Shown here: positions 20,654 to 59,067 of the stretch, piece after piece | Layout: every line of letters begins with the position of its first letter | Position numbering within the stretch: position 1 is the stretch's first letter | NCBI RefSeq assembly: GCF_002742265.1 | Contig: NZ_MDGL01000007.1 | Span: forward strand, 1-64,000 | Reading direction: 5' to 3' | Source of the DNA: Maribacter sp. 4G9 | GTDB taxonomy: Bacteria > Bacteroidota > Bacteroidia > Flavobacteriales > Flavobacteriaceae | Length of the DNA stretch: 64,000 nt | Translations under genes and position numbers: made by a program | Notes under the pieces: generated by a model | Database searches by the model: none | What the model was told of the DNA's origin: nothing | What the model saw: only the letters and a program-made list of their open reading frames with translations

Positions 20654-21732
20654 TTTGCAAAAATCGCAAATAGTCCAATTAACACAAGGATAAAGAGTAC
20701 TAAAAAAAATATTTTCCAGAAAGAGTAGGGCCTACTTCCACTTACCGTACCCGATTGCCCGTTGATATAAAAACTATATTCCTTCCCGGAATACCGGTAA
20801 GAACTAATGTATACGGGCAACAAAACGTGTTTAAAGGTTTCGTTGGAAAGTTTAATATCTGCATGTGCTATACGCTGTGTATCCCCGCCAATATCCCTTC
20901 TGATCCAATTATAGGCTATGTTCTTGGCTTCCTGAAAAGATCTGTGGTGTCCTTCCTTTAAGGAGACCGTATATTTTTCGGTCACAAATCCAGACAAATA
21001 TTTGGTATTGAAAACGACCAGGTCCTTCAAGTTCCAAAAAGCCACTTTGGAGGGAATATCCTTGCTTTTTCGCTTTGAGGCATTGATCAGAATATCGTCC
21101 ACAAAACCATTTACGGCACCTGAAGCATATGTCCACCGGGTTTTTCTAACTTGGCGGGTCCTTTTCCCCTTATCACTATTGTAGGTCTGGGTTTCATAAT
21201 AATAATCGCCTCTTTGTCCTTGGTAGGATGCATAAAGATTGGCATCAAACGTCCAATAGGGAACGTACAATCCGTGCAGGCCTTCCGGATCTAAGGCCGC
21301 CCTTTTAAGTTTGTTGGGGGCAAACCAAAGGTTTTCCACCCAGGACTTAAAAATGCTCCTTGCCTTTTTAGAGTCCAATTGAAACGGTACGAGTGCGCCG
21401 GGCGTTATCCATCCCTCTACTTCTGCATCTTCCCGGATCAGGGGCTCACCGCAATAGACGCAATTTAACGATTTGTAGTTTTCCTCTACATGTTGGTTGG
21501 CCCCGCAGTTCTTGCAGTGTAGCAGTTCAATGGTCTCTGAATAGGCGTTCTCCCCAACAACGGTTAGATAATGAGCCAATTCCAACTCCTCAAAACTGCT
21601 TTTGGATTGTTCTATGAATTCCTCATAGCCGCAATATTCACAGATAAGCTGATGGGAACCTGGCTTAAATTTTAGTTCCGCACCACAATTGGCACATGCC
21701 TTTTTAAGTTCTGATTGTTGAATGTCTTCCAT
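20650..21732 (-). CDS. Zinc-ribbon membrane protein
   Basis: A 360-residue protein with two zinc ribbons: CANCGAEL with CEYCGYEEF (residues 14-43) and CKNCGANQ with CVYCGEPL (about 73-99). A soluble domain with YVPYWTFDANLYASYQGQRGDYYYE follows and one membrane segment ends the protein (about 337-357). Homologues are sometimes labelled 'helicase PriA', but no helicase motif is present. It lies between an SPFH protein and a phosphatase; the ribbons suggest an adaptor role for that system (inference). Confidence 0.82.
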   Translation of the reverse strand: MEDIQQSELKKACANCGAELKFKPGSHQLICEYCGYEEFIEQSKSSFEELELAHYLTVVGENAYSETIELLHCKNCGANQHVEENYKSLNCVYCGEPLIREDAEVEGWITPGALVPFQLDSKKARSIFKSWVENLWFAPNKLKRAALDPEGLHGLYVPYWTFDANLYASYQGQRGDYYYETQTYNSDKGKRTRQVRKTRWTYASGAVNGFVDDILINASKRKSKDIPSKVAFWNLKDLVVFNTKYLSGFVTEKYTVSLKEGHHRSFQEAKNIAYNWIRRDIGGDTQRIAHADIKLSNETFKHVLLPVYISSYRYSGKEYSFYINGQSGTVSGSRPYSFWKIFFLVLFILVLIGLFAIFAK

Positions 21733-55913: not shown

Positions 55914-57812
55914 ATGAGTGACGCAATAAAACACGAGTGTGGCATATCGGTAATCAGACTGCTCAAGCCTCTTGAATATTATAAGGAAAAATATGGCTCG
56001 GCCTTTTATGGGGTAAACAAAATGTACCTCATGATGGAAAAGCAACATAACCGAGGCCAGGATGGTGCCGGTTTTGCGAGCATTAAGTTGGATGTAGAGG
56101 CAGGGCAACGGTATATGAGCAGAGTTCGTTCCTGCCAGCAACAGCCTATACAGGATATTTTTGCCCAAATCAATGAAAGGATCAATAAGGAGCTTAAGGA
56201 CCATCCGGAGTATGAGAATGACGTGAGGCTTCAAAAAAATAACATTCCATATATAGGGGAGTTGTTGTTGGGTCATGTCCGTTATGGAACATTTGGGAAA
56301 AATAGTATAGAAAGTGTCCATCCATTCTTAAGGCAAAATAACTGGATGCACAGGAACCTCATCGTGGCTGGTAATTTTAACCTTACCAATGTTCACGAGC
56401 TATTCGATAATTTGGTTCAATTGGGACAGCACCCAAAGGAAATGGCCGATACGGTGACCGTAATGGAAAAAATAGGTCACTTCTTGGACGACGCCGTTGC
56501 CAAACTTTATAAGCAGATCAAAAAGGAAGGCTTCAATAAGCAGGAGGCATCGCCTATTATAGCTGAAAGATTAAAAGTCTCAAAAATATTGAAACGGGCG
56601 GCCAAGAATTTTGATGGCGGCTTTGCCATGGCCGGACTACTGGGACATGGAGATGCATTTGTATTAAGAGATCCCGCCGGTATAAGACCCGCTTATTACT
56701 ATAAGGATGATGAAATAGTTGTGGTTGCTTCGGAAAGACCGGCCATTCAAACGGTTTTTAATGTTCCTTTTGAGGAAGTAATGGAATTGGAACCTGGAAA
56801 CGCCATTATTGTAAAAAAGAACGGTACTACTAGAATTAAGCAAATTTTGGAGCCTAGGGAGCGCAAGGCTTGTTCCTTTGAACGTATTTATTTCTCCAGG
56901 GGAAGTGACAAAGAAATTTACCAAGAGCGAAAAATGCTGGGAAAATTGGTGTTTCCACAAATTCTTAAGGCCATAGACCATGATCTTAAAAATACCGTTT
57001 TCTCCTATATCCCTAACACAGCGGAAACATCTTTCTTTGGCATGGTCAAAGAAGCCCAAAATTATCTTAACAAGAAAAAAGAAGAACAGATTCTTTCCAT
57101 AGGTGCCAATATTACAAGTGAAGAGTTACATGAAATTCTAGAGGTAAGGCCCAGAATTGAAAAAGTTGCCATTAAGGATGCCAAACTTAGAACCTTCATT
57201 ACACAGGATGACAGTAGGGATGATTTAGTGGCCCATGTATATGATATCTCCTATGGGTCCGTCAAACAGGGCGATAATTTGGTGATTATAGACGATAGTA
57301 TCGTTAGAGGTACAACTTTAAAGAAAAGTATCCTAAAAATCCTTGATAGGCTTTTACCTAAAAAAATAATTGTGGTTTCTTCGGCACCACAGATTAGATA
57401 CCCGGACTGTTATGGGATCGATATGGCCAAACTTGAAGACTTTATAGCCTTTAGGGCGGCTTTGGCACTTCATGAAGAAAACAACACATGGCAAATTATA
57501 GAGGATGTCTATAAAAAATGTGTCGAACAGGTTACAACAAGGGACAAGGATATTATCAATTATGTAAAGGAAATTTATGCTCCCTTTAGCGCGGACCAGA
57601 TTTCCAAGAAGATTGGTGAACTGTTAAGCCCCAGTGATATTAAAGCAGAAGTTCAAATAATCTATCAAGGTATTGGCAGTCTTCACCAAGCCTGTCCTAA
57701 AAATTTGGGTGATTGGTATTTCACCGGCAACTATCCAACACCGGGAGGTAATAGGGTCGTCAATAGAGCTTTTATAAATTTTTTCGAGGGAAAGAACGAA
57801 AGGGCTTATTGA
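55914..57812 (+). CDS. purF: Amidophosphoribosyltransferase
   Basis: A 632-residue enzyme, the first step of purine synthesis. The N-terminal glutamine amidotransferase site would be Cys9 (KHECGI) after removal of a short propeptide; HNRGQDGAGFA and GHVRYGTFG follow. The phosphoribosyltransferase part has the PRPP loop VIIDDSIVRGTT (about residues 458-469). It is longer than the enterobacterial enzyme (about 505), with extra segments between the two halves and at the C-terminus; this longer type is known in Bacteroidetes. purN lies three genes upstream. Confidence 0.9.
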   Translation: MSDAIKHECGISVIRLLKPLEYYKEKYGSAFYGVNKMYLMMEKQHNRGQDGAGFASIKLDVEAGQRYMSRVRSCQQQPIQDIFAQINERINKELKDHPEYENDVRLQKNNIPYIGELLLGHVRYGTFGKNSIESVHPFLRQNNWMHRNLIVAGNFNLTNVHELFDNLVQLGQHPKEMADTVTVMEKIGHFLDDAVAKLYKQIKKEGFNKQEASPIIAERLKVSKILKRAAKNFDGGFAMAGLLGHGDAFVLRDPAGIRPAYYYKDDEIVVVASERPAIQTVFNVPFEEVMELEPGNAIIVKKNGTTRIKQILEPRERKACSFERIYFSRGSDKEIYQERKMLGKLVFPQILKAIDHDLKNTVFSYIPNTAETSFFGMVKEAQNYLNKKKEEQILSIGANITSEELHEILEVRPRIEKVAIKDAKLRTFITQDDSRDDLVAHVYDISYGSVKQGDNLVIIDDSIVRGTTLKKSILKILDRLLPKKIIVVSSAPQIRYPDCYGIDMAKLEDFIAFRAALALHEENNTWQIIEDVYKKCVEQVTTRDKDIINYVKEIYAPFSADQISKKIGELLSPSDIKAEVQIIYQGIGSLHQACPKNLGDWYFTGNYPTPGGNRVVNRAFINFFEGKNERAY

Positions 57813-57882: not shown

Positions 57883-57911
57883 TTGTTCAGGTAGCACTAA
57901 CCTTACTTTTA
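57883..57911 (+). promoter_or_regulatory. Promoter of small RNA copy 1
   Basis: TTG (57883-57885), 18 bases, TACTTTTA (57904-57911, 7 of 8). The expected start of transcription is about 57917, exactly where the conserved element begins. Confidence 0.6.
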
Positions 57912-57916
57912 AGCTT

Positions 57917-57988
57917 GCCATAGCATAAGTAGGTTAAGTTCATGGTAAGATTTGGGGCAAAAAAGGTGGAGGACTCTCCACCTTTTTT
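57917..57988 (+). ncRNA. Tandem small RNA, copy 1
   Basis: A 72-base unit. Its first 41 bases are shared with copies 2 and 3 (one difference to copy 2). GCCAU (57917-57921) can pair with AUGGU (57942-57946) to form a 5-bp stem over a 20-base loop that is identical in copies 1 and 2; copy 3 differs by one base. The single-stranded joint UAAGAUUUGGGG follows. The 3' end is a Rho-independent terminator, A6-GGTGGAG, 4-base loop, CTCCACC-T6. No reading frame of length. Function unknown; a regulatory RNA is likely. I do not recognise the family. Confidence 0.8.
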
Positions 57989-58111
57989 ATTTCCTGCCAT
58001 TTACAAATTATCCGACTTTCCCTTGCTGTAGGATAATAATACAACTTTGGCATTTCAACTAAGGTTTAGGCCGTTCAACCAATTCCTTTTTATTTGGACC
58101 TTCTTTAGATA

Positions 58112-58119
58112 TATCTTTG
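58112..58119 (+). promoter_or_regulatory. -7 box of small RNA copy 2
   Basis: TATCTTTG is an exact match to TAnnTTTG, 4 bases before the conserved element. The nearest TTG (58094-58096) is 15 bases upstream, shorter than usual. Confidence 0.55.
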
Positions 58120-58123
58120 GAGG

Positions 58124-58195
58124 ACCATAGCATAAGTAGGTTAAGTTCATGGTAAGATTTGGGGAAAAAAGGTGGAGCTATGCTCCGCCTTTTTT
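58124..58195 (+). ncRNA. Tandem small RNA, copy 2
   Basis: A 72-base unit. The 5' stem is ACCAU (58124-58128) with AUGGU (58149-58153): the first pair is A-U where copies 1 and 3 have G-U, so the pairing is kept. The terminator is A6-GGTGGAGC, TAT loop, GCTCCGCC-T6; its loop and one base differ from copy 1 but the stem is intact (U-G pair). The 41-base head differs from copy 1 only at its first base. Confidence 0.8.
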
Positions 58196-58298
58196 ATTTT
58201 GACCGCATATCAATTACATACCGTTCAAGAAATCAGGTCTCTAGTAAGGAGAAAAGAAAATTTTTTAACATTTCTTTTTTTATTTCCCACAATACCAG

Positions 58299-58306
58299 TA
58301 ATTTAG
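58299..58306 (+). promoter_or_regulatory. -7 box of small RNA copy 3
   Basis: TAATTTAG (7 of 8 to TAnnTTTG), 4 bases before the conserved element, with a T-rich stretch in place of the -33 TTG. Confidence 0.4.
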
Positions 58307-58310
58307 TCTT

Positions 58311-58382
58311 GCCATAGCATAAGTAGGTTAAGTTTATGGTAAGATTTGGGACGAAAAGGGTGGAGGTTTCTCCGCCCTTTTC
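58311..58382 (+). ncRNA. Tandem small RNA, copy 3
   Basis: A 72-base unit, the most diverged copy. Its stem GCCAU (58311-58315) with AUGGU (58336-58340) gains an extra A-U pair because C is replaced by T at 58335. The terminator stem is GAAAAGGGTGGAG with CTCCGCCCTTTTC: two positions that are A-T in copy 1 are G-C here, a double compensatory change. T-run weaker (TTTTC). The head differs from copy 1 at only two of 41 bases. Confidence 0.78.
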
Positions 58383-58393
58383 TATTATATGCA

Positions 58394-58458: not shown

Positions 58459-59067
58459 CTATTTATTGGCTTCGTACAATTTTGAAACCTCGCCCCAATT
58501 GATGATATTGAAAAATGCATTGATATAATCCGGACGTTTGTTTTGGTAGTTTAGGTAATATGCATGTTCCCACACATCCAATCCCAAAATAGGATACCCC
58601 CCACAACCTACACCGGGCATTATGGGTGTATCCTGATTAGGTGTGGAACAAATTTCCACTTTACCACCTTTATGGACACATAGCCAGGCCCAACCAGATC
58701 CAAATCTAGATCCCGCCGCATCACTGAATTTATCTTTAAAACCTTCAAAGGAACCAAAAGCACCATCAATTGCTTTTGCTAAATCTCCAGAAGGTTTTCC
58801 CCCTCCGTTTGGGGAAAGTATAGTCCAAAATAAAGAGTGGTTAAAAAAACCTCCTCCATTATTGCGGACTCCCATATTGTTCATATCCAGATTGGATAAA
58901 ATATCCTCGATTGATTTGCCATCCAGGTCTGTTCCTTCAATTGCTGCATTTAGCTTTGAAGTATACCCATTATGATGTTTGGTATGATGTATTTCCATTG
59001 TCCTAGCATCTATATGAGGTTCCAGGGCATCATATGCATAGGGCAAATTCGGTAATTGAAAAGCCAT
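58459..59067 (-). CDS. sodA: Superoxide dismutase, Fe/Mn type
   Basis: A 202-residue enzyme dismutating superoxide in the cytoplasm. Metal ligands: His in [18 protein letters not shown] (His about 27), His in [13 protein letters not shown] (about 77), Asp in [16 protein letters not shown] (about 163) and His three residues on. The GNNGGG-like motif favours the Fe/Mn class; metal specificity cannot be settled by eye. It is convergent with the small RNA array. Confidence 0.95.

Follow-up and report, generated by a model that had tools for sequence, protein, structure and literature searches.

What are the three short, near-identical units that stand in tandem between two protein-coding genes of Maribacter sp. 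4G9? They lie in a stretch of 64,000 nucleotides (hereafter the window), behind an ORF that we take to be purF and followed by a convergent ORF that is presumably sodA. The evidence set out below makes it likely that the array consists of sibling copies of a trans-acting small RNA (sRNA) of about 72 nt, which would pair with mRNA leaders, probably repressing them, and would do so without a known chaperone.

The first unit begins about 105 bases behind the purF stop codon. An earlier note on this DNA had described three units of 72 bases, and all of them were found at the positions given there, except that the third is better closed at 58383 (Table 1). Its further statement that the 41-nt cores differ at one or two positions holds for copy 1 against copy 2 (one difference) and against copy 3 (two), but copies 2 and 3 differ at three. 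Each unit follows the same plan: a promoter box, an imperfect hairpin of 30 nt with the apical loop GUAGG, a linker of 11 nt and a strong intrinsic terminator. As had been proposed, a TAnnTTTG-type box ends 4-5 bases upstream of every unit, and a Rho-independent terminator closes all three. Chance can be excluded as the origin of the array because of its conservation: the 23 nt after the start base recur across the genomes of the genus.

Table 1. Features of the array and its neighbours; positions are those of the window.
Feature	Position	Strand	Basis
purF (amidophosphoribosyltransferase), upstream neighbour	55914..57812	+	ORF; tblastn: same strand upstream in 158/179 loci
Promoter box TACTTTTA, copy 1, TAnnTTTG-type	57904..57911	+	sequence
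sRNA copy 1, GGGGC class, likely start to terminator end	57917..57988	+	sequence, fold
Copy 1 5' hairpin, apical loop GUAGG at 57929-57933	57917..57946	+	predicted fold, covariation
Copy 1 single-stranded linker AAGAUUUGGGG, proposed pairing region	57947..57957	+	predicted fold, leader complementarity
Copy 1 intrinsic terminator	57959..57988	+	sequence, fold
Promoter box TATCTTTG, copy 2	58112..58119	+	sequence
sRNA copy 2, GGGGA class	58124..58195	+	sequence, fold
Copy 2 linker AAGAUUUGGGG	58154..58164	+	predicted fold
Copy 2 intrinsic terminator	58165..58195	+	sequence, fold
Conserved promoter element private to last copy: AT-rich block, CACAATACCAGTAATTTAG	58262..58306	+	information content of upstream regions
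Promoter box TAATTTAG, copy 3	58299..58306	+	sequence
sRNA copy 3, last-copy class, U25, GGGAC	58311..58383	+	sequence, fold
Copy 3 linker AAGAUUUGGGA (GGGA)	58341..58351	+	predicted fold
Copy 3 intrinsic terminator	58353..58382	+	sequence, fold
sodA-like superoxide dismutase, convergent neighbour	58459..59067	-	ORF; convergent downstream in 147/179 loci

The same layout was evident among 513 distinct units. TAnnTTnG starts within -24 to -3 of 418 of them, at -12 in 345, compared with 20 of 513 for the control stretch from -48 to -27, and downstream 489 have a hairpin of terminator type with a T-run. Judged by sequence, the array units carry the promoter and the terminator of independent transcription units. 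In the available part of a study on Flavobacterium psychrophilum, the sigma-A box TAnnTTTG is located at -12 to -5 (PMC9723704), and the first base of the unit is therefore the likely transcription start.

Whole units fold with z = -3.5, -4.1 and -4.5 relative to shuffled sequences, mostly due to the terminator. The 41-nt core alone was indistinct from shuffles (z of -1.0 and -1.1 in the two cores examined), so that folding energy says little about the 5' hairpin. The stretch formerly described as a conserved 20-base loop is not open: it is predicted to fold into an imperfect stem of AGC/GUU and UAA/UUA, closed by an apical loop of 5 nt, GUAGG. In the alignment 92% of the cells of this hairpin are paired, compared with 10-49% when it is slid; one inner pair does not form in 11 of the 33 distinct rows. 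Covariation, claimed earlier for the 5' stem, lends the hairpin modest support, with double changes in three of 11 pairs against a shuffled mean of 1.0, but it is thin, as 14 of 500 shuffles reach three. For the terminator stems the claim stood up to inspection by eye: the sequence changes and the pairing stays. Across the units the apical strand and the linker vary little, while the terminators drift.

A single-base difference directly after the AUG of the 3' arm separates ATGGTAAGATTTGGG, present in 449 of the 513 units, from ATGGTAGATTTGGG, present in 57. This bears on the idea that the core encodes a very short peptide from that AUG (AUG GUA AGA UUU GGG). The common forms do contain the AUG, but the difference shifts the reading frame right after it and the terminator comes at once, which makes such a peptide extremely improbable.

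To determine the distribution of the sRNA, related genomes were searched with patterns and models of increasing reach. The 23-nt pattern with up to three mismatches matched 37 of 60 relatives; 36 of these matches are genuine: they cover 35 of the 36 genomes of the genus (own genome included) and the one sampled family member outside it, in most cases with the copies in tandem. A match in the same-genus genome G008 was rejected as spurious, and the 23 genomes sampled from the order's other families gave no match. A 26-nt pattern reached 111 of 299 family genomes. With a covariance model built from 16 cores, matches were obtained in 238 of the 299 sampled family genomes and 191 of 236 genera, at 1-7 matches per genome, copy counts that are slightly inflated because a few matches are antisense leaders rather than sRNA genes. 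Among good genomes (completeness of 90% or more, contamination of 5% or less) the figure is 212 of 249, or about 85%. Many of the genomes that the model alone reached have a form of the linker that is one base shorter. When 296 genomes from the phylum were scanned, 30 had a match at E up to 0.1, 26 of them from the same family; the remaining four, at 25-29 bits, were treated as chance. A second model found nothing in 12 genomes of the same order, seven of the same class and 12 family genomes lacking the sRNA. Among the stretches listed (at least 120), the array occurs in Maribacter, Zobellia, Arenibacter, Flagellimonas, Robiginitalea, Cellulophaga and Kordia. The search of Flavobacteriaceae and the covariance model that had been suggested thus returned the RNA in most of the family and nothing convincing outside it. 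The putative sRNA is kept with few changes in most sampled Flavobacteriaceae genomes.

The genomic position is conserved as well. In addition to the counts for each neighbour (Table 1), both genes flank the sRNA in 133 of 179 loci and neither does in seven; in this set some genomes appear twice (from two collections), some loci are clipped by contig ends and two are antisense leaders (L048 and L049). Four of the 12 family members without a model match have purF beside convergent sodA, separated by about 20-110 bases that contain at most one simple terminator. Since this short gap contains no sRNA, its absence in these four genomes is real. In G105 (L435), also without a model match, the sequence about 180 bases behind purF reads AATTATGGTAGATTTGAG, which resembles the 3' half of the sRNA and is perhaps a remnant. 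Five dispersed copies (L419, L420, L421, L423 and L424) are single full units elsewhere, with promoter box and terminator kept (by eye).

These data speak to two further explanations. The units could be cis-acting elements, or mere repeated terminators between convergent genes, and have no function in trans; their place behind purF and their terminators agree with this, but the four genomes without the sRNA maintain the purF-sodA pair with at most one simple terminator, the dispersed copies retain the box and the core, and termination does not need a 41-nt core. We regard this explanation as very unlikely, and a cis-acting role is also disfavoured because the downstream gene sodA is convergent. 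Hardly conceivable is a mobile or repetitive DNA element: against the variable copy number and the few dispersed copies stands the same locus in most loci, a synteny that by itself disfavours it, and the exact 20-nt core has no match in viral contigs or plasmids and only chance-level matches in phages. Integration of a mobile element into the array was considered for the one large gap, in L416, and rejected, as no integrase was found there among ORFs of at least 100 aa; between the third and the last copy this array (L416:1326-4732) contains two surface-protein-like genes, one with a weak CarboxypepD_reg match and one with PNGase_F-II_N/Porph_ging. By far the best reading remains the regulatory RNA family proposed at the outset, given box and terminator in most of the 513 units, conservation throughout the family and five dispersed copies that keep both.

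Which proteins might assist such an RNA? Hfq (PF17209) was found in none of 100 family genomes, including our own, and in five of 14 control genomes. RRM_1 (PF00076) matched six of 199 family genomes and had no match in our own (G000); its positive control was two of 14 control genomes, one of them a Bacteroides. The array sRNA is far commoner in the family than either protein. It appears to work without Hfq and, nearly always, without RRM proteins, and to need no known RNA chaperone.

No family of Rfam release 15 reached threshold in the window. Flavo-1 (RF01705), the comparison suggested earlier and likewise found in Flavobacteriaceae, gave no covariance match at the array locus at E up to 10, although the same kind of scan recovers a genuine Flavo-1 of 55.2 bits at L236:2520-2606, about 1 kb from an sRNA unit. 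FopS (RF04319) scored 21.8 and 16.2 bits on copies 1 and 2 only, in a relaxed search and below its gathering threshold of 56 bits, and did not match any of 14 divergent loci at E up to 10. Both FopS and the array sRNA contain AGGUUAA and a CAURGUA..AGAUUU stretch. As far as the accessible text of the source goes, FopS denotes paralogous sRNAs of Bacteroides thetaiotaomicron that repress mRNAs of SusC-type transporters (PMC11697453); with about 65-70 nt, several copies, sigma-A-type promoters and pairing at the translation initiation region, they resemble what is proposed for the array sRNA. According to the same text, FopS genes are scattered and their RNAs are bound by the RRM protein RbpB, whereas the array sRNA is tandem and PF00076 lacks a match in 193 of the 199 genomes.

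In the excerpts available, Rfp18 of F. psychrophilum affects metalloprotease mRNAs (PMC9723704). It is likewise a flavobacterial sRNA, and proteases are among the targets proposed here; its third stem-loop is described there as the pairing region, whereas the array sRNA has two hairpins, a comparison made by description only. One of the 85 RNAs newly described in that paper may be the array locus. Searches of the open-licence PMC literature returned this paper as the sole study on small RNAs of Flavobacteriaceae, no relevant paper on a purF-linked sRNA in Flavobacteri- and no occurrence of five exact core strings. Several near-identical sRNAs with a common seed and separate promoters are also familiar from Qrr and OmrA/OmrB. 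Those sibling sRNAs depend on Hfq, in contrast to the array sRNA with its 0 of 100 genomes. The nearest relatives in mode of working are sibling sRNAs such as FopS, and the array belongs neither to FopS nor to Flavo-1.

The clearest target matches come from genera other than that of our own genome. Three places among the matches listed for the 26-nt pattern fall outside sRNA genes and supplied candidates; a further one (L403) came from a search with CCCCAAATCT. On the other strand, the non-sRNA matches are leaders or leader-like: L048 and L049 (genomes G092 and G317), L477 (G288) and L476 (G229). In G092 and G317 the leader of a 40-aa ORF is a near-complete antisense of the sRNA before the ATG, and G182 (L403) shows the same before a related ORF of 42 aa. 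In these leaders CCCCAAAT comes first; the next box, CCCAAAATCTACCATAAACTTAACCTAC or CCCCAAATCTACCATAAACTTAA, stops 4-5 or about 7 bases short of the ATG, and a CAAATCTACC box follows just inside the ORF, giving three sRNA-complementary boxes around the start. G182 has sRNAs of the shorter-linker form, one C25 and one U25 copy, and its leader fits the U25 copy along an unbroken run of 23 nt that stops a little short of the ATG. Pfam and NCBIfam gave no match for the 40-42-aa ORF; in G092 the gene (L048:1533-1652) is convergent with a gene resembling a peptide ABC transporter ATPase. In G288 a similar complementary arrangement and a second CCCCAAAT precede a DUF5060 protein of 1310 aa with a secretion tail. 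An intergenic stretch of G229 (L476:1480-1590) carries two sRNA-complementary boxes and then an intrinsic terminator, and could possibly be a sponge RNA.

With an sRNA of the G182 type or that of the window as partner, these stretches gave computed interaction energies of -36.0 (L048), -26.6 (L403), -30.7 (L477) and -34.6 kcal/mol (L476), with none of 100 shuffled leaders as low in each case; alone the energies are circular evidence, because the cases were picked for their resemblance to the sRNA. The placement before the start codon and the further boxes are not circular. Complementarity at start codons was observed for L048, L049, L403 and L477, and for the 40-42-aa protein it is kept between two genera. 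Of the two regions previously proposed to bind targets, the joint UAAGAUUUGGGG is a likely one; the 'loop' is mostly stem, yet its GUAGGUUAAGUU strand is complementary to the candidate leaders. That the conserved GUUAAGUU strand sits inside a predicted stem is a point against pairing.

For our own genome, predicted pairing was examined for 670 genes (the window and 39 stretches of 20 kb). Eight leaders reached -18 or lower, compared with a mean of 2.6 and a maximum of 6 for 24 shuffled sRNAs, a mean of 1.6 and a maximum of 4 for eight sets of shuffled leaders, and one for the reversed sRNA. The five leaders at -20 or lower compare with a mean of 1.0 for shuffled sRNAs, whose maximum of 5 equals them. 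At -14 or lower there was no excess over shuffled sRNAs (20 versus 18.1; 12.0 for shuffled leaders). The strongest pairings thus exceed most controls modestly. The five belong to a polysaccharide lyase lipoprotein (L489, -23.4) and a small lipoprotein-like protein (L493, -22.8), each with one of 100 shuffled leaders as low, to a subtilase whose secretion tail is weak (L486, -21.0; none of 100 shuffled leaders as low; gene at G000:C148 near 185348, minus strand), to a protein of 276 aa that seems to resemble a universal stress protein (L296, -22.5) and to a 360-aa protein of the window, with its start near 21732 on the minus strand (-20.2). Most telling is the subtilase, because its leader is antisense to almost the whole sRNA, up to and past the start codon. 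Two of these five genes look cytoplasmic, so the theme of secreted targets is partly a matter of selection. Two other leaders were set aside: L291, with seven of 100 shuffles as low, and L306, with none as low but an energy of only -14.5.

Searches with short strings were less discriminating. A local-alignment scan of leaders gave 24 hits for the real core versus 23 for the reversed core at a score of at least 10, and a weak separation, 12 versus 6, at score 11. The 18-nt complement with up to three mismatches had ten matches in our own genome besides the sRNA versus 11 for the control; two of these lie at integrative elements, away from start codons. Exact CCCCAAATCT sites outside the sRNA numbered 94 in ten genomes compared with 57 for the reversed control. 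Of the 81 sites inspected, 43 are antisense to an open frame, 20 lie in a sense frame and 18 are intergenic. Five are located at the likely starts of five different genes (L343, L347, L380, L397 and L405). Sites recurring in two genomes each, one within a gene (L321/L365) and one intergenic (L358/L369), are not at starts, and inspection of the ten genomes by eye revealed no start-codon target common to several of them.

TonB/SusC receptors as the main target class were tried with a mostly negative outcome, one motif being weakly enriched after the fact. In duplex energy with SusC-type leaders, the whole core, its apical part and the 3' arm did no better than shuffled sRNA, and the result of the linker against 35 receptor leaders was reached by eight of 150 shuffles. 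The 14 SusC leaders come closer to AACTTAACC, one of four motifs tried post hoc, than other genes do (two of 300 shuffles as high); for CCCCAAATCTTA this does not hold (279 of 300). AACTTAA occurs at -60 to +5 in four of 14 SusC-type genes versus four of 373 others of our own genome (L261-L282 leaders) and may be a separate leader motif.

We infer that the array sRNA is transcribed, that it pairs with the candidate leaders and that the pairing represses. Each unit would have a promoter of its own to start transcription and a terminator of its own to stop it. The linker UAAGAUUUGGGG would pair with CCCCAAAU(CU) in mRNA leaders, and the GUAGGUUAAGUUYAUGGUA strand with (C)CAURAACUUAACCUAC directly before the start codon. 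Pairing at this position would block ribosome entry, for which reason repression is the most likely outcome. Targets may include secreted or surface proteins (the subtilase, the polysaccharide lyase lipoprotein and the DUF5060 protein), the 40-42-aa protein and some others, and extra copies would add dosage.

CsrB-type and 6S RNAs act by sequestering protein, and the array RNA might mainly do likewise, its near-identical hairpins titrating a translational regulator or another RNA-binding protein through the GUAGG loop and the linker. Such a role would account for a hairpin whose sequence, and not its pairing alone, is near-invariant in most units, for the thin covariation, for 1-7 model matches per genome and for the lack of Hfq, and mostly of RRM proteins, to aid pairing. 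It would not lead one to expect leader complementarity of up to 23 continuous nt before start codons, and no candidate protein is known; we consider it unlikely.

An sRNA kept with few changes in about 85% of good genomes, outside any Rfam family and in bacteria where the search for Hfq came up empty, would rank as a central regulator. It would serve as a test bed for sRNA action without a known chaperone, with concrete candidate targets and a natural experiment in copy specialisation. Members of the Flavobacteriaceae play a major part in the breakdown of algal polysaccharides and proteins. A bolder, tentative proposal, which we think has the odds against it, is that of a near-universal, chaperone-independent riboregulator of the family that exerts control by long antisense pairing over secreted degradative enzymes, among other targets, with U25 and C25 copies preferring A- and G-facing targets and sponges like that of L476 as buffers.

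Serial induction of the copies, which had been put forward earlier, would be conceivable; what the sequence offers is a conserved promoter element that belongs to the last copy. The upstream regions of the last-copy (GGGAYG) class, 40 of them non-redundant, hold 19.4 bits over -45 to -28 and 19.1 bits over -27 to -13. The corresponding values are 4.3 and 1.3 bits for the GGGGC class, 10.5 and 1.9 for GGGGA, and 8.3 and 5.8 for the shorter-linker class. With up to two mismatches, the core of this element occurs a single time, at the array locus, in 15 of 16 genomes; in the 16th (G261) it is present only as a 3-mismatch match. Because this conserved upstream element is private to it, the last copy is probably under control separate from that of the other copies. 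With its own promoter element and U25, it would probably respond to another signal than the other copies do, and its preferred targets may be those with an A facing position 25.

Finally, a short string related to the sRNA was noticed in a different setting. CCCAAATCTTACC is the reverse complement of the sRNA's GGTAAGATTTGGG, over at most 16 nt plus AAGTT. It stands beside a GCGC hairpin, with seemingly compensatory stems (by eye), at L410:3722 and 5787, L413:4326, L034:1218, L411:3216, L412:3592 and in L039, where the hairpin adjoins one of the 18-nt complement matches mentioned above. Six of these loci were scanned and gave no Rfam match, and two viral matches to the looser element pattern were dismissed as being without its hairpin (by eye). 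In L410, CCCAAATCTTACC flanks a NikA-like/relaxase gene pair on both sides, with a tyrosine integrase adjoining; elsewhere it lies directly behind an integrase (L413) or near a relaxase-like ORF (L034). The element may be an attachment site, a decoy or a coincidence.
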